DNA from: Neoarius graeffei
Lineage: Eukaryota > Chordata > Actinopteri > Siluriformes > Ariidae
Direction: 5' to 3'
DNA: 64,000 nt
Assembly (NCBI RefSeq): GCF_027579695.1
Contig: NC_083581.1
Location: 62,074,200-62,138,199 of the forward strand
The notes under the pieces were generated by a model, which worked only from the letters and a program-made list of their open reading frames with translations, searched no databases and was not told where the DNA came from. Positions 6,672 through 62,542 of the stretch are shown piece by piece; within the stretch, counting starts at the first letter, position 1; every line of letters starts with the position of its first letter. The position numbers were made by a program, and so were the translations under genes.

Positions 6672-6744
6672 ATTCCACGAAATTCAGTTGGATATGCACT
6701 GATAGCTGACAAGGTGCGGTGCACCGTGTAGGCTATAAGCCATA
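6672..6744. mobile_element. Left half of a palindromic MITE split by Tc1-B
   Basis: CAGTTATTCCACGAAATTCAG starts a foldback-type MITE. Its other end, ending GTGGAATAACTG on the opposite strand, is found at about 28198-28224. Between the two lies the whole nested Tc1-B block. The TA at 6743-6744 abuts the Tc1 terminus CAGTGGTGCTT, as expected for TA-targeted insertion. Confidence 0.65.
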
Positions 6745-7470
6745 CAGTGGTGCTTAAAAGTTTTTGAACCCTTTAGAATTTTCTATATTTCTGTATAAAT
6801 ATGACTGATCAGATTTTCACACAAGTCCTAAAAGTAGATAAAGAGAACCCAGTTAAACACATGAGACAAAAATATTATACTTGGTCATTTATCTCGTCTC
6901 ATTATCTCTAGCCGCTTTATCCTGTTCTACAGGGTCGCAGGCAAGCTGGAGCCTATCCCAGCTGACTATGGGCGAAAGGCGGGGTACACCCTGGACAAGT
7001 CGCCAGGTCATCACAGGGCTTGGTCATTTATTTATTGAGGAAAATGGTCCAATATTACATATCTGTGAGTGGCAAAAGTATGTGAACCTTTGCTTTCAGT
7101 ATCTGGTGTGACCCCCTTGTGCAGCAATAACTACAACTAAAGGTTTCCGGTAACTGTTGATCAGTCCTGCACACCGGCTTGGAGGAATTTTAGTCCATTC
7201 CTCTGTACAGAACAGCTTCAACTCTGGGATGTTGGTGGGTTTCCTCACATTAACTGCTCGCTTCAGGACTTTGGTCAGGACTTTGACTTGGCCATTCCAA
7301 AACTTTAACTTTATTCTTCTTTAACCGTTCTTTGGTAGAACAACTTGTGTGCTTAGGGTCGTTGTCTTGCTGCATGACCCACCTTCTCTTGAGATTCAGT
7401 TCATGGACAGATGTCCTGACATTTTCCTTTAGAATTTGCTGGTATAATTCAGAATTTATTGTTCCATCAA
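6745..7470 (-). pseudogene. Tc1-B transposon: 3' end and C-terminal transposase relic
   Basis: The terminus CAGTGGTGCTTAAAAG begins at 6745 beside a TA. Reading the minus strand, 7470 to about 7090 encodes the C-terminal half of a Tc1 transposase, including the MQQDNDPKHTS region with the second catalytic aspartate. The stretch that should hold the third acidic residue is deleted between two CAAAGTCCTGA repeats (near 7260-7285). The same element continues at 10913-11590, 17807-18028 and, inverted, at 28226-28330, so the original transposon has been split by a LINE, a Gypsy and a BEL element. A truncated SINE lies at 6893-7018. Confidence 0.88.
6893..7018 (-). mobile_element. SINE family A, 5'-truncated
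   Basis: Only the tail-proximal 126 bp of the SINE is present; the tRNA head is missing. It is flanked by a perfect 13-bp duplication CTTGGTCATTTAT (6880-6892 and 7019-7031). It therefore inserted in truncated form by target-primed reverse transcription and was not trimmed later. Confidence 0.92.
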
Positions 7471-17806: not shown

Positions 17807-18028
17807 GATCCCTGTTCTTTAAATAAAACAGGGTGCCAACTCACACCTGATTGTCAACCCATTGATTGAAAGCACCTGACTAATTTCACCTTCAAATTAA
17901 CTGCTAATCCTAGAGGGTCACATACTTTTGCCACTCAGATATGTAATATTAGATCATTTTCCTCAATAAATAAATGACCAAGTATGATATTTTTCTCTCA
18001 TTTGTTTAACTGGGTTCTCTTTATCTAC
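17807..18028 (-). mobile_element. Tc1-B fragment: 5' untranslated part
   Basis: This is the region between the Tc1-B transposase start and its terminal repeat. It repeats, inverted, text seen in the other Tc1-B end: AATAAATAAATGACCAAGTA here against CTTGGTCATTTATTTATTGA at 7019. It ends at TCTAC (18024-18028), the target duplication of the BEL element. Confidence 0.85.
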
Positions 18029-18456
18029 TGTGGGAGCCAAAGTGTGTTTTATATGCTTTTGTCCATTTATATTGGAAAGGTTGTATGAATGTAGATAAAT
18101 GGTTGATTAGAAATAGGCAAAAGGTTAGTTAAATTCGTTCGATTTAATCCATGTTCATTTTAAAGTAAGTTTTGTAACCTTTTGTTAGGAGCCATTTTTA
18201 TGTTACTGTCGCTTTAAGAAAACAAGTCTTTAGCGCACACATCGCTTGGAGGTAGTTGAGGCTTAATCAGGACTGAGCCACACAGTTTTCTTACCGAAGC
18301 GCCTTTTACAATGAGAAAACATTGACTTTGTAAAACTTGGAATAAATACATTTTTGTTTAATCTTTTACACCGGAGTCCCGTGGACGTTATTTTCATTCT
18401 CATCCAGTGAAGGTGCACGAGTTAAGTTAACCTCGCCAAAAGGTTCAACCCCCACA
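18029..18456 (+). repeat. BEL/Pao 5' LTR
   Basis: Starts TGTGGGAGCCAAAG and ends CAACCCCCACA, with target duplication TCTAC at 18024-18028. The partner duplication, as GTAGA, is at 28326-28330 because that end has been inverted. It contains AATAAA at about 18342. Confidence 0.9.
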
Positions 18457-22267: not shown

Positions 22268-23306
22268 GAGTTTGTTGGTGTATCGAGTCCGACAGTTTCA
22301 GGTTTAAGATCACCATCCCAGACAAAGCACCCACCAGGAGAAACATCTTATCCCTCGTGAGCTCAGTTTATGACCCACTGGGTATCTTAGCACCAGTGGT
22401 GCTTTCAGCCAAGAAAATCCTGCAAGAGCTCTGCAGACTGAAGATAGGCTGGGATGTCCCAATACCTGAGGAGCTAGCTCATGAGTGGTCCACCTGGACG
22501 GCTGCATTACAACAGCTGGTGAACGTCAGCATCCCTAGGTGTTTCTAGCCCGTAGCTACTTGCTACAGAAGAATAGCAGCAACGAAGCACATTGTGCATT
22601 TGTCATCGCCACGCAACTCCTGGGTAATGGGAAAAGTGATCCAGACAGTCCCAGACAAGTTTGGACTGATACGTCAGGTACGCATAAAGACCAAGACCAG
22701 CATGCTGGATAGGCCCATCACAAAACTTTGCCTTCTTCAGGAAGCTGAATGAGGCCAATCTAACTCCGGTAACGGAAAGGAAGACTACTTCCCAGAAAGA
22801 CTTTAATTTCTTTGGCTCTTTGTTATATAGTTTGGTAATTGTCTCTAGTTAAGAGTCCAACCCCGATTCCAAAAAAGTTGGGACAAAGTACAAATTGTAA
22901 ATAAAAACGGAATGCAATAATTTACAAATCTCAAAAACTGATATTGTATTCACAATAGAACATAGACAACATATCAAATGTTGAAAAGTGAGACATTTTG
23001 AAATTTCATGCCAAATATTGGCTCATTTGAAATTTCATGACAGCAACACATCTCAAAAAAGTTGGGACAGGGGCAATAAGAGGCTGGAAAAGTTAAAGGT
23101 ACAAAAAAGGAACAGCTGGAGGACCAAATTGCAACTCATTAGGTCAATTGGCAATAGGTCATTAACATGACTGGGTATAAAAAGAGCATCTTGGAGTGGC
23201 AGCGGCTCTCAGAAGTAAAGATGGGAAGAGGATCACCAATCCCCCTAATTCTGCGCCGACAAATAGTGGAGCAATATCAGAAAGGAGTTTGACAGTGTAA
23301 AATTGC

Positions 23307-23926
23307 TGTTAGGGTTTTGCTGGGGATCAAACCGAGGTTACTGGTGTAGTGATCCAGCAAACCCCCACTAGGCCACCAGGGGAATGACTCAAGTGCAGAG
23401 GAGTGAGGCGAAAGTAGAGTAGAAAAAGAGTTTATTTACAAAATTTACAATCCAAGGCAAAAACAAAAGTATAATCCAAACGCTCAGAAGATAACTGGGA
23501 AAAAACCAAAAGTTCAAAGTCAAAACAAAGAGCCAAAAACCAGAAAAGAAGAGGCAAAAATACAAACACTCAGAAGATCCAAAAATGGTAAACACAAAGT
23601 CCAAAAAAGTACAAAAGAAAGCAAAGTACAAAAACCACAAAGACACAGGCGAGGAACATGGAACAGAGGTTACTGGAGCTAAACATAACAGCACAAAGAC
23701 TCCGTGACTAGGGACCAAACTGAGGAAGTATTTATACACAGGGAAATTAAGAAACTGGGCGGGGCAGGAAGTAAAGAACAGGTGGGGGTAAAAGGCACAT
23801 GGAAACAGGCAATCAAAACAAACACAAAACACAGAAACAGTGGCAGCCTCTAGAGGCCAAAACAAACATGACAAGATAAGGAAATAACAGCGGCCTCTAG
23901 AGGCCAAAACAGTCCCAGTCCTAACA
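23307..23926 (-). mobile_element. Solo LTR of a Gypsy-type element
   Basis: On the minus strand it starts TGTTAGGACTGGGACTG and ends with TAACA; the flanking target duplication is ATTGC (23302-23306, 23927-23931). It shares with the Gypsy LTR at 11591 the CCTCTAGAGG palindrome near the start and the T-arm-like text plus GAGTCATTCC near the end. It therefore belongs to a sister family. No internal region remains, as expected after LTR-LTR recombination. Confidence 0.88.
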
Positions 23927-23931
23927 ATTGC

Positions 23932-24735
23932 AAAGAGTTTGAACATATCATCCTCTACAGTGCATAATATCATCAAAAGATTCAGAGAATCTGGAAGAAT
24001 CTCTGTGCGTAAGGGTCAAGGCTGGAAAACCAAACTGGGTGCCCTGATCTTCGGGCCCTTAGACGGCACTGCATCACATACAGGCATGCTTCTGTATTGG
24101 AAATCACAAAATGGGCTCAGGAATATTTCCAGAGAACATTATCTGTGAACACAATTCACCGTGCCATCCGCCGTTGCCAACTAAATCTGTATAGTTCAAA
24201 GAAGAAGCCGTATCTAAACATGATCCAGAAGCGCAGATGTCTTCTCTGGGCCAAGGCTCATTTAAAATGGACTATGGACTGTGGCAAAGTGGAAAACTGT
24301 TCTGTGGTCAGACGAATCAAAATTTGAAGTTCTTTATGGAAATCAGGGACGCCGTGTCATTCGGACTAAAGAGGAGAAGGACGACCCAAGTTGTTATCAG
24401 CACTCAGTTCAGAAGCCTGCATCTCTGATGGTATGGGGTTGCATTAGTGCGTGTGGCATGGGCAGCTGACACATCTGGAAAGACACCATCAATGCTGAAA
24501 GGTATATCCAGGTTCTAGAGCAACATATGCTCCCATCCAGGCGACGTCTCTTTCACGGAAGACCTTGCATTTTCTAACATGACAATGCCAAACCACATAC
24601 TGCATCAATTACAGCATCATGGCTGCGTAGAAGAAGGGTCCGGGTACTGAACTGGCCAGCCTGCAGTCCAGATCTTTCACCCATAGAAAACATTTGGCGC
24701 ATCATAAAACAGAAGATACAACAAAAAAGACCTAA
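23932..24735 (+). pseudogene. Tc1/mariner transposase relic (transposon C)
   Basis: Overlapping short frames carry the second helix-turn-helix (STVHNIIKRFRESGRISV), then TIHRAIRRCQLNLYSSKKKPY and [21 protein letters not shown] with the first catalytic aspartate, and [10 protein letters not shown]. The later text near 24570-24700 retains NDNAK-like and SPIENIWRIIK-like coding. At least three frame changes and several stops separate the pieces. The same family recurs on the minus strand at about 45450-47097 and 54455-55775. Confidence 0.85.
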
Positions 24736-25778
24736 CGCTACGTTCACACTGCAAGGCTTAATGCTCAATTCCGATTTTTTTGTGAAATCCGATTTTTTTG
24801 TGAGGTCGTTCACATTAACAAATATATGCGACTTGTATGTGATCCTCAGTATGAACGAAAAGCGACCTAAAAGTGTTCCGCATGCGCACTGCAGGATACG
24901 ACGACGTCACACGCAGTGAGCATGGCCAGTGTTTACGGAAGTAAAACCGCCCGGTTGCGGTATGACTCATCCAATCTAGCTTGAATAGCTGCATCCCCCC
25001 AAATGGAAATCAGCTCCCTAACCTCTGCGTCCTTCCATTGAGAAGATTCAGAACCTTCACAGCCCGAAGCGTCCCTCGCATTGATGTCATGCGCAGGGGC
25101 GCAGATACGTTTTTTGAACTGGGGGGGACAAAAAACTGGGGGGGACAAAGCTGCCAGCAAACCAACCCCAACCCCGATATGCCTGTCAAACTTGTTAGTA
25201 ACCATAGCAACCAAGCTCGAGCTCGCAACCTGTGCAGTCTGCGCAGCTCAACCAACCGAATATCAGTCTTTGTTTTATGTGAGTTGTTGCAACTATGTAT
25301 ACACTGCTGTGCACCTTAATAAACCGAATGGTAATTAGTCTTTTGATTTTTCCGTGAGGTTTGCCTTATGCAAAGAAAGACAGCATAGACGTTTTTTCCT
25401 CCCTATAAGTGGGGGGGACCGAACGAGGTGAATTTAAATATGACTCGTCCCACCCTCTATCTGCGCCCGTGATTATGCACCATGTTGTTGTAACTTTTTT
25501 TGAGAGACCCGCCGCCTACTTCAGCGCAGAATAGTGACGTTTGTGGCTTGTTGATGACGTGTAAGTCGGATGAATGCGACCTGGCGGTTCAGACTGAAGT
25601 CGCATATGAAAAGAGCGGATAGGAATCGGAATTAGCACCACATATCCAAACGGCCTGGGTCGGATTTGAAAAAATCGGATCTGTGTCGTTCATATTGTCA
25701 ATAAAAGATCGGATGCAGGTCACATATGGGCGAAAAGATCGGATTTGAGTCACTTCAGCCTGCAGTGTGAACGTAGCC
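24736..25778 (-). mobile_element. PIF/Harbinger-like element nested in transposon C
   Basis: Ends are inverted copies of GGCTACGTTCACACTGCA with TAA/TTA at the flanks, compatible with a 3-bp target. The minus-strand stretch 25046-24933 encodes WKDAEVRELISIWGDAAIQ and ARLDESYRN, which looks like the Myb/SANT-like DNA-binding domain of Harbinger-type elements. The domain is cut short and no DDE nuclease is present, so it is a deletion derivative. A second MITE lies at 25094-25471. Confidence 0.7.
25094..25471. mobile_element. hAT-type MITE (putative) within the Harbinger-like element
   Basis: CAGGGGCGCAGATACG at the left and, inverted, CACGGGCGCAGATAGAGG at the right form terminal inverted repeats. 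The 8-bp flanks GTCATGCG and ATTATGCA match at five positions. The interior has two GGGGGGGAC runs. hAT affiliation is inferred from the CAGGGGCG-type end. Confidence 0.55.
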
Positions 25779-26158
25779 TTAGACAGTTGAGCAACTAGAA
25801 TCCTACATTAGACAAGAATGGGTTAACATTCCTATCCCTAAACTTGAGCAACTTGTCTCCTCAGTCCCCAGACATTTACAGACTGTTGTAAAGAGAAAAG
25901 GGGATGTCTCACAGTGGTAAACATGGCCTTGTCCCAACTTTTTTGAGATGTGTTGTTGTCATGAAATTTAAAATCACTTAATTTTTCTCTTTAAATGATA
26001 CATTTTCTCAGTTTAAACATTTGATATGTCATCTATGTTCTATTCTGAATAAAATATGGAATTTTGAAACTTCCACATCATTGCATTCCGTTTTTATTTA
26101 CAATTTGTACTTTGTCCCAACTTTTTTGGAATCGGGGTTGTACAATTAGGGGCCGGAA

Positions 26159-26399
26159 TGTGGGAGCCAAAGTGTGTTTTATATGCTTTTGTCCGTTTAT
26201 ATTGGAAAGGTTGTATGAATGTAGATAAATGGTTGATTAGAAATAGGCAAAAAGTTAGTTAAATTCGTTCGATTTAATCCACGTTTTGTAACCTTTTGTT
26301 AGGAGCCATTTTTATGTTACTGTCGCTTTAAGAAAACAAGTCTTTAGCGCACACATTGCTTGGAGGTACAGTAGTTGAGGCTTAATCAGGACTGAGCCA
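26159..26399 (+). repeat. BEL/Pao 3' LTR, first part
   Basis: Matches 18029-18284 of the 5' LTR with a deletion of about 20 bp near 26282, and stops at CTGAGCCA, the target duplication of MITE A. The remaining LTR is at 28331-28704 on the opposite strand. Confidence 0.93.
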
Positions 26400-27032
26400 T
26401 AGGGTGCATCAGTTGCCCCCTAAAAATGAAAAGTTCCTCCGATCATGATGCATTTTTGTTTTTATGTTCCTTTTGGTAAGAAAACACACTGGGTGAAATA
26501 TTTTGACAAAATTCAAAAGTTTAATGGTGGCACCAGGAGCTCAAAGTTATCGAAAAAGCTGCTATTTTATGACTTTTATGACAAAATTTCGATCACTTTT
26601 CATGAAACATTATGGCACCTTATAGAGTATACCAAATATCTTTGATACACATTTTTAGTACATATTCTAAATATATTATCAAGCACAGTTTGAGTTTTAG
26701 CTGTTCATTGAATCATTGTTCAACTACTTTTAAACAATACAAATGTATTATGAATCACATTAATGCTTCTCAGTCCCTTGCAAAGGTTCTTAACATGATC
26801 TCTGGGTCACAAGAAATCAATAAATGGAGTCCAACATTGTGATTCAAACCTTACGCGAAAACATAAAATAAGCGTTTTCTGGCAAAAAAAAAAAAAAAAG
26901 AACCTCATGGTGCTACCATTAGACTTTTGAATATGGTCAAAAATTTTACAGGATGTTCTTTATTGGTGAAAAGGAACACCCAAACAAAAATGCATCAGAT
27001 TTTATGAAAGTGAGGGCAACTGATGCACCCTA
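26400..27032 (+). mobile_element. hAT-like foldback MITE, copy A
   Basis: Starts TAGGGTGCATCAGTTG and ends with its inverse. The two ends are long imperfect inverted repeats of roughly 170 bp (both contain GATGCATTTTTGTTT, GTTCCTTTT and TAATGGTGGCACCA). The left flank is CTGAGCCA; the right flank is GTGTACCC, which is not a duplicate but matches the duplication around copy B. The 8-bp duplications seen after correcting the inversion indicate a hAT-type element. Confidence 0.92.
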
Positions 27033-27090
27033 GTGTACCCTGCCTCTCACTCAAAGACAGCTGGGATTGGCTCAAGTTTCCCACATGACT
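27033..27090 (+). mobile_element. SINE family A, piece separated by the inversion
   Basis: The plus strand here reads GTGTACCCTGCCTCTC and on through AGCTGGGATTGGCTC, i.e. SINE sense. Its continuation (29330-29556) is SINE antisense. This is an old, diverged copy interrupted by MITE B and then divided by the inversion. Confidence 0.85.
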
Positions 27091-27236
27091 CTGACAGATA
27101 AGTGGTATGGACCCTTTTCACGTGACGTCACGACAAACGCGGCCGCCATTTTGGACATGTACTACCAGTAGTTTACCACAGCCAACATTGAGGAACGGCA
27201 GCAAAGAAAGTGTTTATTTTCAGCAAGACTTCCATC

Positions 27237-27387
27237 ATGCCACTATGTTGTTGTGCACCTGGATGTAGTAACCATCAACAAACAAGGCAAGGGTTATCAT
27301 TTTATCGGATCCCGGTAGATGCTGACTGACGGAGAAGATGGATAGCGGCATACCAACGCTTGTGTAGTGACCACTTTGTTGGAGGTA
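27237..27387 (+). pseudogene. THAP zinc-finger domain relic
   Basis: From ATG at 27237 the translation reads MPLCCCAPGCSNHQQTRQG and then LSFYRIPVDAD before a TGA. One frame over it continues RRRWIAAYQR, and then LCSDHFVGG. The C-X4-C start, FYRIP and the CSDHF block are the hallmarks of a C2CH THAP DNA-binding domain. The middle region that normally separates WI..R from CSDHF is shortened, and the frame is broken after DAD. A GT-containing sequence GAGGTAAGAC directly follows, as if the domain ended at a splice donor. The likely source is a P-like transposon; a host THAP gene is less likely given the flanking inverted repeats. Confidence 0.75.
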
Positions 27388-27439
27388 AGACGAATAAAAT
27401 TAGCCAGAAAAGGCATTACATTGCTGTTAACATTCCATT

Positions 27440-27649
27440 CTAGTTTACTGTAATTATGATCTGGCAGCTATTTACACCGGATCCAGTGTAAATAGCTGCC
27501 GGAGCCAACGTCCGAGGTTCCGGAGCGCGCTCGCTCGCGGCCCGGCCGGAGCCAGTGCGCGCGCTCCGGAACCTCGGACGTTGGCTCCGGCAGCTATTTA
27601 CACTGGATCCGGTGTAAATAGCTGCCAGATCATAATTACAGTAAACTAG
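27440..27649. repeat. Perfect inverted repeat, 2 x 91 bp with 28-bp spacer
   Basis: The arm 27440-27530 is the exact reverse complement of 27559-27649, with a GC-rich 28-bp spacer. Each arm also contains a 38-bp near-palindrome (GGCAGCTATTTACAC on both sides of GGATCC), so it can fold on itself. GC content rises sharply towards the centre (GCGCGC, CGCTCGCGGCCCGGCC). Confidence 0.97.
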
Positions 27650-27745
27650 TAAATACAGTTTTCTGCATCTCGCTCCTTTTTCTTTTATGTTTGTCGCCTT
27701 CCTCGCATTCAAACCGATTTGAGCCGAAGTCCACTACATGTCCAA

Positions 27746-28185
27746 AATGTAAAAGAAAAAGAAACAGACATAGCTAAATAAAAGAATCTAGTTTTTCCCT
27801 GGCCAATATCTCCTGCTCCACACTCCAGCCCAATCGGTGGCGGTAATGCACCTTTAAGTTGGTTTGCTACCCACCAAAAAATGAAGAAAAGAAAATGGTA
27901 GACCGTGTTATTGAACCAAAAAAATCAAGGACGAAATAAAAACTCTTCCCAAAAACATAAAAAGCACAACAAAATATGGAATGAAAGTATTTGATGGTAA
28001 GAACATATTTTTTTTTATTTTTCAAGAATTATTATTATAGCATTTTTCAGAAATTGCTACTGTTGTTTGCTGGTTTGTTGATATTCAAAGCGGAAATTAT
28101 TTTGTCGTACGTTTTGTGTAAAGTTTTTATTTATCGAATTTGCAAAAAATAAAAAAAATGCTCTGTTTCTCAAAATCTAGTGAAT
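27746..28185. other. AT-rich, no recognisable gene
   Basis: It holds a fragment with GGTGGCGGTAATGCACC (27836), a motif found in dispersed fish repeats, and poly-T-rich text. I see no coding exon. Confidence 0.4.
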
Positions 28186-28225
28186 GTGGATAGAAAACAG
28201 TTATTCCACTCAATCTCGTAGTATA
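28186..28225. mobile_element. Right half of the palindromic MITE (inverted)
   Basis: Contains ACAGTTATTCCACTCAATC. On the opposite strand this ends GTGGAATAACTG and pairs with the left half at 6672-6744. It ends with TA at 28224-28225 beside the Tc1-B terminus. Confidence 0.6.
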
Positions 28226-28330
28226 CAATGGTGCTTGAAAGTTTGTGAACCCTTTAGAATGTTCTATATTTCTGCATAAATATGACCTAAAACATCATCA
28301 TCAGATTTTCACACAAGTCCTAAAAGTAGA
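28226..28330 (+). mobile_element. Tc1-B 5' terminus, inverted
   Basis: CAATGGTGCTTGAAAGTTTG matches the other Tc1-B terminus at 6745 (CAGTGGTGCTTAAAAG) and continues to AAAAGTAGA at 28330. GTAGA here is the complement of TCTAC at 18024-18028, the BEL target duplication. In the un-inverted order this closes the Tc1-B element. Confidence 0.9.
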
Positions 28331-28704
28331 TGTGGGGGTTGAAGCTTTTGGCAAGGTTAATTTAACTCGTGCACCTTCACTGGATGAGAACGAAAATAAT
28401 GTCCACGGGACTCTGGTGTAAAAGATTAAACAAAAATGTCTCATCTCATTATCTCTAGCCACTTTATCCTGTTCTACAGGGTCGCAGGCAAGCTGGAGCC
28501 TATCCCAGCTGACTACGGGCGAAAGGCGGGGTACACCCTGGACAAGTTGCCAGGTCATCACAGGGCTGACACATAGACACAGACAACCATTCGCACTCAA
28601 TGTATTTATTCCAAGTTTTCCAAGGTATCTTATTACAGGAGTATTCCAAAGTCAATGTTTTCTCATCGTAAAAGGTGCTTTGGTAAGAAAACTGTGTGGC
28701 TCAG
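28331..28704 (-). repeat. BEL/Pao 3' LTR, second part, inverted
   Basis: On the minus strand it reads from CTGAGCCACACAG to CCCCCACA, completing the LTR begun at 26159. A truncated SINE (28439-28598) interrupts it. Confidence 0.92.
28439..28598 (-). mobile_element. SINE family A, 5'-truncated
   Basis: Contains the tail-proximal part only, from CTCATCTCATTATCTC to ACAACCATTCGCACTC. A short AATG is repeated at both sides. It lies within the BEL 3' LTR. Confidence 0.85.
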
Positions 28705-29329
28705 TAGGGTGCATCAGTTGCCCTCACTTTCATAAAATCTGATGCATTTTTGTTTGGGTGTTCCTTTTCATCAATAAAGACATCCTGTAAAATTTTTTGA
28801 CCATATTCAAAAGTCTAATGGTGGCACCATGAGGTTCATTTTTTGCCAAAAAACGCTTATTTTATGTTTTCGCGTAAGGTTTGAATCACAATGTTGGACT
28901 CCATTGATTGATTTCTTGTGAGCCAGAGATCATGTTAAGAACCTTTGCAAGGGATTGAGAAGCATTAATGTGAGTCATAATACATTTGTATTGTTTAAAA
29001 GTAGTTGAACAATGATTCAATGAACAGCTAAAACTCAAACTGTGCTTGATAATATATTTAGAATATGTACTAAAAATGTGTATCTAAGATATTTGGTATA
29101 CTCTATAAGGTGCCATAATGTTTCATGAAAAGTGATCGAAATTTTGTCATAAAAGTCATAAAATAGCAGCTTTTTCTATAACTTTGAGCTCCTGGTGCCA
29201 CCATTAAACTTTTGAATTTTGTCAAAATATTTCACCCAGTGTGTTTTCTTACCAAAAGGAACATAAAAAACAAAAATGCATCATGATCGGAGGAGCTTTT
29301 CATTTTTAGGGGCCAACTGATGCACCCTA
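28705..29329 (-). mobile_element. hAT-like foldback MITE, copy B
   Basis: Same family as 26400-27032, opposite orientation. Its left flank is TGGCTCAG (complement of CTGAGCCA) and its right flank is GGGTACAC, so neither pair duplicates within the present order. Both are restored when the segment 27033-28704 is flipped. Confidence 0.93.
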
Positions 29330-29556
29330 GGGTACACCCTGGGCAGATCACCAACCTATCACAGGGTTAAAACAGAAACAGACAGCCATTCACATTCACG
29401 TTCACAACCCTGGGCAATTTCAAGTCATCCGCATGTCTTTGGACTGTGTGAGGAAACTGGAGCACCTGGAGGAAACCCATGCAGGTACAAGAAGAACATG
29501 AAAACTCCACATAGAAAGGCCCTGGTTGGCCATGAGGTTCAAATATTGTATTTGGA
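29330..29556 (-). mobile_element. SINE family A, old copy, remaining part
   Basis: Runs from GGGTACACCCTGGGCAG through GCATGTCTTTGGACTGTG to AAAGGCCCTGGTTGGCC. It is diverged and has no clear tRNA head. It is the continuation of 27090-27033. Confidence 0.8.
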
Positions 29557-30818
29557 TTAATAGAACTAGTTATTATTTGAAGTGTACAGAATATGTAATT
29601 CACGATATAGTACAACATACTATGTCATGTAGCACGCTCCAAATGGGAAATCTGTGCCAAAATGAGAGGACAAAGCATGGCTCGGCTTGAAGAATCTATA
29701 AAACGACTATAATTAGGCTATTTTGATGTCTTTTTGTAGAAACACGTAATTATGCAAGACACAGTTTGGTAGTGTATCAAAGGTTAAGACACAGAGATCG
29801 TTGATGCTCAGGTCAGTATAGCAATAGGTCTGATGCGGATATTTCTGTAGAATCCATGAGTAAAATACAATGATACTTCCTACAGCTATGTACAGCTATG
29901 GATAATGACAATCAACCACAGCATGACACCCAGACAAAGATAATTGTACAGCAAAATATGCCTAACATATGTTGGCTCATCTTTCAGGGAAAAAAATCTT
30001 TTGGAAAAAAAAGAAATCTCTCTCTCTCTCTCTCTCTAAGATGAGCTGATGCATTTGCTGCAGAGTACAGCACGATGAAACACTGCAGCTCTTAAGGAGA
30101 CGAGGCTCTGCATCGCCCTGGAGATAACCAAGGAGGGGGAGATTTCCCCTTCAGTGCATCAGAGAAATTGCAAACTCAGTGATCTAGCCACTGGAAACCT
30201 GCTCACTTTGCTCCCATATAGAAAGAAAAAAAATGTTCTGATACCAAAAATGATTGAATACAAGGGCATTTATACATGTTTATTTCCAAATCCAGAAAGC
30301 CTGGAAAGACTTTTCATTTTCCATTCTTTATGAACAGTTTAAAATATTTCCATTAGTAGCGTCACAGGACCCAAAGGATTGTAATATTCGGCTGATCTTC
30401 TTGATTAGAATGTATAGTTTATTCATGCTAACAAAGCAACAAATTTAGGTCATTTGAAATTACTTCATAACACAGAACTGCTACAGGTTACACTGAGACA
30501 GGATAATTGAAAAGACCTGCAAAAGGAGAGTTCAATAAAATAAAAAAAATAAATTCTTCAGAAGCATAATGTACAATTAAAGACAAAATTAAAGCACTTT
30601 GCAAAATATACCAGAATCTGGAGATGGTTTTGTTTGGATATTTCAAACTATGACCCATATGATGAAATACATGGTGGGTACTCTCCGATTACAGCACTGT
30701 CAGAACATCTTCAGATTATTCTTAGAATTTAAAACGATATTTCCAGATTCTTGGGATTTTGGTGCAGTGAGAGTACATAAACCACACAAAAGACAATAAA
30801 AAGCAAGACACTGTGCAA
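29557..30818. other. No recognisable gene
   Basis: AT-rich sequence with a (TC)n tract at about 30017-30039. Open frames are under 70 codons and without motifs. Confidence 0.5.
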
Positions 30819-31442
30819 TAGGGTGCATCAGTTGCCCTCACTTTCATAAAATCTGATGCATTTTTGTTTGGGTGTTCCTTTTCACCAATAAAGACATCCT
30901 GTAAAATTTTTTGACCATATTCAAAAGTCTAATGGTGGCACCATGAGGTTCATTTTTTGCCAAAAAACACTTATTTTATGTTTTCGTGTAAGGTTTGAAT
31001 CACAATGTTGGACTCCATTTATTGATTTCTTGTGACCTAGAGATCATGTTAAGAACCTTTGCAAGGGATTGAGAAGCATTAATGTGATTCATAATACATT
31101 TGTATTGTTTAAAAGTAGTTGAACAATGATTCAATGAACAGCTAAAACTCAAACTGTGCTTGATAATATATTTAGAATATGTACTAAAAATGTGTATCTA
31201 AGATATTTGGTATACTCTATAAGGTGCCATAATGTTTCATGAAAAGTGATCGAAATTTTGTCCTAAAAGTCATAAAATAGCAGCTTTTTCCATAACTTTG
31301 AGCTCCTGGTGCCACCATTAAACTTTTGAATTTTGTCAAAATATTTCACCCAGTGTGTTTTCTTACTAAAAGGAACATAAAAACAAAAATGCATCATGAT
31401 CGGAGGAACGTTTCATTCTTAGGGGGCAACTGATGCACCCTA
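30819..31442 (-). mobile_element. hAT-like foldback MITE, copy C
   Basis: Complete copy with TAGGGTGCATCAGTTG termini and a perfect 8-bp duplication CTGTGCAA (30811-30818 and 31443-31450). This intact copy proves the 8-bp target size of the family. Confidence 0.95.
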
Positions 31443-31567
31443 CTGTGCAAAATAAAACTAAAGTCCATTTCAGTTTTCATTAGCTCACAAAAGACTCATG
31501 ATGCCAGGCTGATCCTGATATAAAGACATACTGGATAGTCTCCCTAGCATGTAGCATGACATGAAAA

Positions 31568-37292: not shown

Positions 37293-39628
37293 GTAGCACT
37301 GGGGGTGTTGTTGTTGTTGTTGTTCTGTTCCTCTCTTTCTGTTTAACTTCATCCTATTTACACAGGCTACTAAATATATTTTATATCATATTATCAGTGT
37401 GCATCACTGCAGCAGAACATCCATCCATCTATTCTCCGTAACCACTTATTCAAGCGGTAGAAACAGGGTGAGAAGCTTGGTCATTCGGCAGAGACTCCGA
37501 GTAGAACCGCTGCTCCTCCACATCAAAAGGAGTCAGTTGAGGTTGTTCGGGCACCTTGTTAGGATGCCCCCTGGACACCTTCCAAGGGAGGTTTTCTGGG
37601 CATGCCACACCAGGAGCAGACCCCGGGGCAGACCCAGGACACGCTGGAGAGATTACATCTTTCAGCTGGCCTGGGAACGCCTCGGTATTCCTCCGGAAGA
37701 GCTGGTGGAGGTGGCCAGGGATCTTGAAGTCTGGGCTGCTGTGCTTAGGCTGTGCTACCCCTGCAACCCGGATCCGGATAAGCGGTAGAAGATGGATGTC
37801 TGGCACTTATTCAAAGATTCAAATATTTTTTTATTGTCAATTCACAATATATCCAGGACATATAGGAGAATCGGTGGCGGCACGGTGGTGTAGTGGTTAG
37901 CGCTGTCGCCTCACAGCAAGAAGGTCCTGGGTTCGAGCCCCGGGGCCGGCGAGGGCCTTTCTGTGTGGAGTTTGCATGTTCTCCCCGTGTCCGCGTGGGT
38001 TTCCTCCGGGTGCTCTGGTTTCCCCCACAGTCCAAAGACATGCAGGTTAGGTTAACTGGTGACTCTAAATTGACCGTAGGTGTGAATGTTTGTCTGTGTC
38101 TATGTGTCAGCCCTGTGATGACCTGGCGATTTGTCCAGGGTGTACCCCGCCTTTCGCCCGTAGTCAGCTGGGATAGGCTTCAGCTTGCCTGCGACCCTGT
38201 AGAAGGATAAAGCGGCTAGAGATAATGAGATGAGATATAGGAGAATTGAAATGCCATTTTTCTCTCTCACCTTACTTGTAAAATCAGATAAAACATATTT
38301 ATATAAAGAAAAGAAAGCACAACTTTATTCTTCATACACTTGTGAAATTCCTCTCTGCATTTAACTTATCTGAAGCAGTGAACACACACACGTGAGCAGT
38401 GAGCACACATACATACCTAGAGCAGTGGGCAGCCATGCTAACAGCACCCTGGGAGCAGTTGGGAGTTGGGTGCCTCACTCAAGGGCCCAAGGCCGTCCCA
38501 TATTAACCTAACCGCATGTCAACCATTGACAACCATTCACACAACCAGACAACCATTCACACTCACACCTACGGTCAATTTAGAGCCACCAATTAGCCTA
38601 ACCTGCATGCCTTTGGACGGTGGGGGAAACCGGAGCACCCGGAGGAAACCCACGCAGACACGGGGAGAACATGCAAACTCCACACAGAAAGGCCCTTGCC
38701 AGCTGCTGGGCTCGAACCCAGAACCTTCTTGCTGTGAGGCAACCTTGCTAACCACTACACCACACTCAAAAAAATAACTGACCCTAAAAAATAGACTTTA
38801 TGTAATTTAATCACATGACAATTTTCCATGTAATTCTATCACATAAACTTTAAGTAAATACCGAGCTTTATGGTACACGTTTCAACCATGTTAAGGTAAT
38901 GCAAATAAATTACATAATGGTTATGGATTTTTTTTTAAATAAACCTTACGTGGATAAATGGACTCAATGTTTTTTTAAGATATTTTTTGGGCTTTTTTTA
39001 TTGGATAGGACAGTGTAGAGACAGGAAATGAGCAGGAGAGAGAGACGAGGAGGGATCGGGAAATGACCTCGGGTCGGAATCGAACCCGGTCCCCAGATTT
39101 ATGGTATGGCGCCTTATCCACCTGAGCCACAACATCCCCATGAGTCAATGGTGAAATTAAAACGATTTTTTGATTCCGCTTGAATTGTGACATGAATTTC
39201 ACATATCGTGTTTCTGAAATTTTAAATATAATTATTTGTACCAATAAGGTCACAATTTAGTAGGAAGAAGTTTGACACAATGACTGAAAATGTTGCCACC
39301 TGCCATCTACTGTGCGGGAGTGTGATGTGCATGTCAGTCCCTACGAGATCTCATCAAGTAAAGTATACATGATTTGTTTAGATATAGTTCGTAGTAGGCC
39401 AGTTCACATAGCGTTTATATGATTTAATTGAATATATTTTAAATTTTATAAACTTTACTTAAATTTTATGTGTAACTATTTCTTAATATTTACCTGGACC
39501 AAGAATCATTTTTTTGAGTGTATTTTTTTGAGTGTACACTGTGCCGCCCTATGTAGGAGAATTGAAATGCCATTTCTCTCTCACCTTACTTGTAAAATCA
39601 GATAAAAAATATTTATATTAAGAAAAAC

Positions 39629-61454: not shown

Positions 61455-62542
61455 GAGGATTGAAATGAATGGAGGCATCAATCATAAATTTATTATTATT
61501 CATTATAATTGATTATATTATTATTATTATCAAGATTACAACAGAAAGTGGGGTGGCACGGTGGTGTAGTGGTTAGCGCTGTCGCCTCACAGCAAGAAGG
61601 TCCGGGTTCGAGCCCCGTGGCCGGCGAGGGCCTTTCTGTGCAGAGTTTGCATGTTCTCCCCGTGTCCGCGTGGGTTTCCTCCGGGTGCTCCGGTTTCCCC
61701 CACAGTCCAAAGACATGCAGGTTAGGTAAACTGGTGACTCTAAATTGACCGTAGGTGTGAATGTGAGTGTGAATGGTTGTCTGTGTCTATGTGTCAGCCC
61801 TGTGATGACCTGGCGACTTGTCCAGGGTGTACCCCGCCTTTCGCCCGTAGTCAGCTGGGATAGGCTCCAGCTTGCCTGCGACCCTGTAGAAGGATAAAGC
61901 GGCTAGAGATAATGAGATGAGATGAGGATTGAAATGAATGGAGGCATCAATCATAAATTTATTATTATTCATTATAATTGATTATATTATTATTATTATC
62001 AAGATTACAACAGTCCAAAGACATGCAGGTTAGGTTAACTGGTGACTCTAAATTGACCGTAGGTGTGAATGTGAGTGTGAATGGTTGTCTGTGTCTATGT
62101 GTCAGCCCTGTGATGACCTGGCGACTTGTCCAGGGTGTACCCCGCCTTTCGCCCGTAGTCAGCTGGGATAGGCTCCAGCTTGCCTGCGACCCTGTAGAAG
62201 GATAAAGCGGCTAGAGATAATGAGATGAGATGAGGATTGAAATGAATGGAGGCATCAATCATAAATTTATTATTATTCATTATAATTGATTATATTATTA
62301 TTATTATCAAGATTACAACAGTCCAAAGACATGCAGGTTAGGTTAACTGGTGACTCTAAATTGACCGTAGGTGTGAATGTGAGTGTGAATGGTTGTCTGT
62401 GTCTATGTGTCAGCCCTGTGATGACCTGGCGACTTGTCCAGGGTGTACCCTGCCTTTCGCCCGTAGTCAGCTGGGATAGGCTCCAGCTTGCCTGCGACCC
62501 TGTAGAACAGGATAAAGCGGCTAGAGATAATGAGATGAGATG
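61455..62542 (+). repeat. Local triplication built on a SINE insertion
   Basis: GAGGATTGAAATGAATGGAG starts three units at 61455, 61924 and 62232. Unit 1 holds a complete family A SINE (about 61552-61922, plus strand). Units 2 and 3 (308 and about 310 bp) hold only the SINE from TCCAAAGACATGCAGG onward, joined directly to GATTACAACAG. The short frames shared by the units are repeat products. Confidence 0.93.
61552..61922 (+). mobile_element. SINE family A, full length
   Basis: Head GGTGGCACGGTGGTGTAGTG with intact A and B boxes, and an ATGAGATGAG tail. It is the parent of the partial copies at about 62013-62231 and 62321-62542. Confidence 0.92.

Follow-up and report, generated by a model that had tools for sequence, protein, structure and literature searches.

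Exchanged target-site duplications point to a small inversion between two inverted copies of a MITE

Introduction

Two copies of a MITE that lie in opposite orientation, neither of them between matching 8-bp flanks, raise the question of whether the DNA that separates them has been turned around and, if so, by which process. Such a pair occurs in the window (the whole stretch of DNA analysed, 64,000 bases long), where the original prediction had proposed "ectopic recombination (or aberrant transposition)" between the two copies. As general background, hAT elements make 8-bp duplications and carry terminal inverted repeats of the pattern YARNG.

Results

The MITE copies and their 8-bp flanks

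The two breakpoints and the third copy of the family comprise the following features.

26400..27032, + strand: MITE A, 633 bp, ends TAGGGTGCATCAGTTGCCC
28705..29329, - strand: MITE B, 625 bp, orientation opposite to MITE A, 96.2% identity over 635 columns
30811..31450, - strand: MITE C with its flanks (MITE proper 30819-31442, 624 bp), matching CTGTGCAA on both sides; control insertion
26392..26399, + strand: CTGAGCCA, outer duplication of MITE A, target within the 3' LTR
27033..27040, + strand: GTGTACCC, displaced partner of the right flank of MITE B
28697..28704, + strand: TGGCTCAG, displaced partner of the left flank of MITE A
29330..29337, + strand: GGGTACAC, outer duplication of MITE B, target within the old SINE
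27033..28704, - strand (reversed relative to the surroundings): segment read as inverted, 1672 bp, whose LTR, Tc1-like and SINE pieces are opposite to their outer halves

Homologous MITE copies in opposite orientation stand at both breakpoints, and the limits proposed for A and B were right to the base. MITE C is 97.6% alike to MITE B. TAGGGTGCATCAGTTGCCC forms both ends of all three copies, apart from one mismatch in B, and the first 19 bases are equal at both ends in A and C (18/19 in B). The terminus TAGGG fits the hAT end pattern YARNG. That the family makes 8-bp target-site duplications, as had been claimed, is seen directly in C, and for A and B it emerges after pairing across the inversion; the uninterrupted sites described below carry a single 8-mer, in line with such a duplication. 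From the length of the duplications and the TAGGG ends, a hAT-like origin of the family is plausible.

The mismatch of the flanks was likewise borne out: MITE A lies between CTGAGCCA and GTGTACCC and MITE B between TGGCTCAG and GGGTACAC, the left flank of one being the exact reverse complement of the left flank of the other, and the right of the right, so that a flip restores both pairs. The duplications are thus exchanged between A and B, with all four 8-mers intact and no new duplication. Calculated from the 8-mer frequencies of the window, a single match of this kind would arise by chance with a probability of 4.9e-5 and both with 2.4e-9. However, GGGTACAC is a word frequent in SINEs (found 16 times in the window, 11 forward and five reverse, including the two at the junctions of MITEs B and A), which makes the second match weaker than the joint figure implies, and the case for the inversion does not rest on it. 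CTGAGCCA occurs four times on both strands of the window, three times in LTR copies and once at 39122.

The three copies of the family all lie within about 5 kb (26400-31442; random-placement p 0.013, calculated post hoc), and no further copy was found elsewhere in the 64-kb window at E 1e-5. Two collections of little bearing here gave no matches: viral contigs for the 19-base end pattern and a 38-base internal pattern, and bacterial and archaeal genome contigs for the 19-base end pattern. A composite transposon made up of A, the segment and B was ruled out, as the outer flanks CTGAGCCA and GGGTACAC differ. An exchange involving MITE C was also ruled out, as C retains its matching pair of duplications.

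Uninterrupted sites within the window

The elements broken by the MITEs have relatives in the same window. Their names are those of the original prediction: the LTR element is presumably BEL-like, and the others are what we take to be a Tc1-like repeat and a SINE. By its repeats, the host resembles a bony fish.

18029..18456, + strand: 5' LTR, uninterrupted version of the MITE A target (ends by eye)
26159..26399, + strand: left half of the 3' LTR, ending at MITE A
28331..28704, - strand: right half of the 3' LTR, in the inverted segment; a younger SINE (28439-28599) is inserted and 28600-28621 is unmatched
28326..28330, - strand: TCTAC, 3' duplication of the LTR element (5' partner at 18024-18028)
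28223..28330, - strand: Tc1-like terminal piece, whose other half ends at 18028
27033..27082, - strand: left half of the old SINE, matching 62443-62492
29330..29540, + strand: right half of the old SINE, its first 98 bases matching 62450-62351 (-)

The intact 5' LTR matches 26159-26399 (+), then 28705-28622 (-) and 28439-28330 (-). The first two of these parts share CTGAGCCA, which occurs once in the 5' LTR (18273-18280), plus one chance base. When the continuation to the right of MITE A is flipped, its alignment to the intact LTR has 55 matches, three mismatches and seven gap columns; as found, it has 33 matches with 10 mismatches and 32 gap columns. The claim that a flip rejoins the LTR is thereby supported. 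Divergence between the LTRs is 13/404 overall (4/236 in the left half, 3/58 and 6/110 in the right half), compared with 12/623 between MITEs A and B, which is in keeping with the order of events suggested by the nesting. As a separate observation, the halves of the 3' LTR differ in their divergence from the 5' LTR (4/236 vs 9/168, p 0.048; 4/236 vs 13/191, p 0.011, when the whole 84-column piece is counted).

The LTR element itself sits in the Tc1-like repeat with a TCTAC duplication (18024-18028 and 28326-28330 (-)), and the insertion site is uninterrupted in a second Tc1-like copy, which is split into pieces (6742-6892 (-) and 7019-7089) and has both halves meeting at 6742-6892. The left part aligns with this copy with 47 matches, three mismatches and three gap columns; for the right part, which the window shows inverted, the alignment has 49 matches, two mismatches and 34 gap columns, the latter partly an end overhang. 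A further Tc1-like element (about 22855-26142, ends by eye) has inserted into the interior of the LTR element and carries a solo LTR-like insert at 23307-23926 (TGTTAGG...CCTAACA) with ATTGC at both flanks.

The third uninterrupted site is a SINE relative at 62351-62492, whole at the position split by MITE B. Its 62443-62492 is the sole other match of the SINE left half in the window at E 1e-5 (80% over 50 columns); the right half matches 62351-62450 at 76% over 100 columns, where other SINE copies match too, some of them better. The two halves match the relative on opposite strands and overlap by exactly eight bases (62443-62450). With these paralogues, the Tc1 terminus, the TCTAC duplication and the old SINE, which had been listed as rejoined by the same flip, each have an uninterrupted counterpart within the window. 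A tandem SINE-bearing repeat lies at 61729-62450 (308-bp spacing, exact over 414 bp).

Inversion and order of events

Given the swapped duplications and three paralogous uninterrupted sites (LTR, Tc1-like and SINE) that all agree, the segment 27033-28704 is almost certainly inverted relative to its surroundings, with limits that coincide to the base with the inner MITE ends. The ancestral order is read here from paralogous uninterrupted sites within the window.

An assembler that crossed between the MITEs and flipped the interval would leave exactly the same picture, A and B being inverted, more than 600 bp long and 96% alike. Yet A and B are identical over no more than 110 bp at a stretch, whereas an exact 414-bp direct repeat (at 61729 and 62037, the longest found in a scan of the window) was kept apart in the same window; together with the absence of any N in the 64,000 bases, this suggests a long-read assembly, and we consider an error of this kind very unlikely.

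The nesting of the elements shows an order in which the Tc1-like repeat would have come first, followed by the LTR element with its TCTAC duplication and then by MITE A in the 3' LTR; on the other side, the old SINE would have preceded MITE B. The flip would have come last, or together with the insertion of MITE B (or A) if it took place by the hybrid-element insertion discussed below.

Contents of the inverted segment

The segment appears by eye to be mostly repeat debris. It also includes the following structure.

27440..27649: near-perfect 210-bp palindrome in the inverted segment, with 99-nt arms 97% complementary

This palindrome has a G+C-rich centre and a predicted DNA fold of -131.5 kcal/mol (z -28.5; 0/200 shuffles as low), and no other copy was found in the window at E 1e-3. 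Long palindromes provoke breaks, and this one is a possible trigger of the flip. Close to it, 27237-27386 is a THAP-domain exon (Pfam PF05485, E 9.5e-10) with one in-frame stop, followed by what looks by eye like a GT donor site. The exon lies between 15-bp inverted repeats (27147-27161 and 27735-27749), so it may belong to a decayed DNA transposon.

Mechanism of the inversion

Recombination between two pre-existing inverted MITEs is, in our judgement, the probable mechanism. MITE A would have inserted into the 3' LTR of the BEL-like element at the target CTGAGCCA, and MITE B would have entered the old SINE some 1.7 kb away at the target GGGTACAC, facing the opposite way. A later exchange between these 96%-alike inverted copies, by an NAHR crossover or an equivalent replication template switch, would flip everything between the crossover points and leave each MITE with one of its own duplications and one from its partner. 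We infer, rather than observe, the presence of both MITEs before the flip, the point of exchange and any trigger such as the palindrome. According to excerpts of PMC8225341, recombination between inverted elements usually leaves non-identical duplications, creates none anew and flips only the interval, and a segment ending exactly at the two inner MITE ends is the pattern given for NAHR there and for ectopic recombination in excerpts of PMC2775673. Our preference comes mainly from priors: inversions of this kind are usually explained by recombination, and two close inverted copies mark the ends of the interval.

The differences among the copies bear on this choice. Pairwise mismatches number 12 (A-B), 13 (A-C) and 14 (B-C). 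The A-B pair is thus no more alike than the pairs with C, which is what separate insertions should give. In the alignment of the three copies, 23 columns are private to A, seven to B and seven to C, and one is triallelic; nine of the columns of A fall in a poly-A expansion, and we attribute nine to the loss of one base and the gain of one. Counted by hand, A carries four to five substitutions, B six and one gap, and C seven. With regard to chimerism of A and B, the differences are all singletons except the triallelic column. It had been suggested that aligning A, B and C would locate the crossover inside the MITEs; this proved impossible, since every variable column but the triallelic one is private.

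The same outcome could arise from a single parent copy if a MITE sat at one site on both sister chromatids and opposite ends of it were integrated jointly at the other site. Such a hybrid-element insertion inverts the interval and leaves two copies, identical at birth, with exchanged duplications; excerpts of PMC2775673 describe it as strikingly similar in outcome, with chimerism of the copies as the distinguishing feature, and it predicts the exchanged duplications seen here (PMC2775673). It needs only one prior MITE and one event, and three copies within 5 kb (p 0.013, post hoc) would fit local transposition. We compared it with recombination in a simple Poisson model on the hand-counted substitutions, with likelihoods averaged over event ages. 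Since the A-B pair is no more similar than the pairs with C, a hybrid-element event would have to lie close to the family burst: hybrid-element insertion stays within 2 log-likelihood units if it occurred at no less than about 0.43 to 0.47 of the family age, and its best fit is at 0.83 to 0.88. There its likelihood is slightly higher than that of recombination (0.0038 vs 0.0030, or 0.0040 vs 0.0036) with one more free parameter, whereas the averaged likelihood ratio, a weak one of 1.7 to 2.1, is in favor of recombination (star tree). We regard hybrid-element insertion as unlikely but deserving of serious consideration, and the fuller claim that a vertebrate hAT-type MITE made the inversion by sister-chromatid hybrid-element insertion, with A and B as daughters of one copy and the flip itself a transposition event, as slightly less likely still. 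Leaving recombination and aberrant transposition both open, as the original prediction did, was apt, since hybrid-element insertion gives the same duplications, and its wording is supported.

Transposase could also have acted on the near-perfect ends of both MITEs in another manner, either by reversed-ends transposition or by cutting and rejoining the interval at the two inner MITE ends. Cut-and-rejoin events of hAT elements leave footprints, which should then be present at the junctions, whereas none of the four 8-mers is altered. In reversed-ends transposition, a new matching duplication forms at the breakpoints, as stated in excerpts of PMC8225341, instead of the two exchanged ones found here; the criteria published in PMC2775673 and PMC8225341, as excerpted, speak against it. 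An origin by either of these routes is extremely improbable, and recombination between the two MITEs is retained as the best mechanism.

Discussion

The inversion at this locus is real and very clean, and it exemplifies a well-known way for transposons to rearrange genomes. With both breakpoints and three uninterrupted reference sites in a single sequence, the event is readable without an outgroup, and the small inversion is unusually well documented. Judged by eye, the interval consists mainly of repeat debris, so no direct effect on a gene is apparent. A genome-wide scan for inverted MITE pairs with exchanged duplications could count the micro-inversions driven by transposons and could separate recombination from aberrant transposition.

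Among titles and abstract openings in the open literature on MITEs with inversion or recombination, no MITE-mediated inversion in an animal was found. Related papers include work on recombination between MITEs in bacteria (PMC13367494), on transposable elements and large inversions in codfish (PMC13011446) and on Galileo (PMC3573991). The MITEs described here are, like the hAT-derived MITEs exemplified by Mar in Drosophila (excerpts of PMC3517528), short and non-coding with inverted ends, a likeness by description only; their 8-bp duplications are those of hAT elements in general. The alternative-transposition inversions of maize Ac/fAc (excerpts of PMC8225341) also occur at elements with 8-bp duplications but at their breakpoints a matching duplication has newly arisen, whereas both pairs are exchanged in our case.

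The closest precedent is Galileo of Drosophila buzzatii (inversions 2j, 2q7 and 2z3; excerpts of PMC2775673), where two inverted copies of a DNA transposon likewise stand at the breakpoints. Those are polymorphic chromosomal inversions with 7-bp duplications, while the present one spans 1.7 kb in a nested transposon cluster and has 8-bp duplications. Chimeric copies were shown for 2z3 (PMC2775673), whereas A, B and C differ here by singletons apart from one triallelic column; in 2z3, the target-site duplications are exchanged, just as they are here (PMC2775673).
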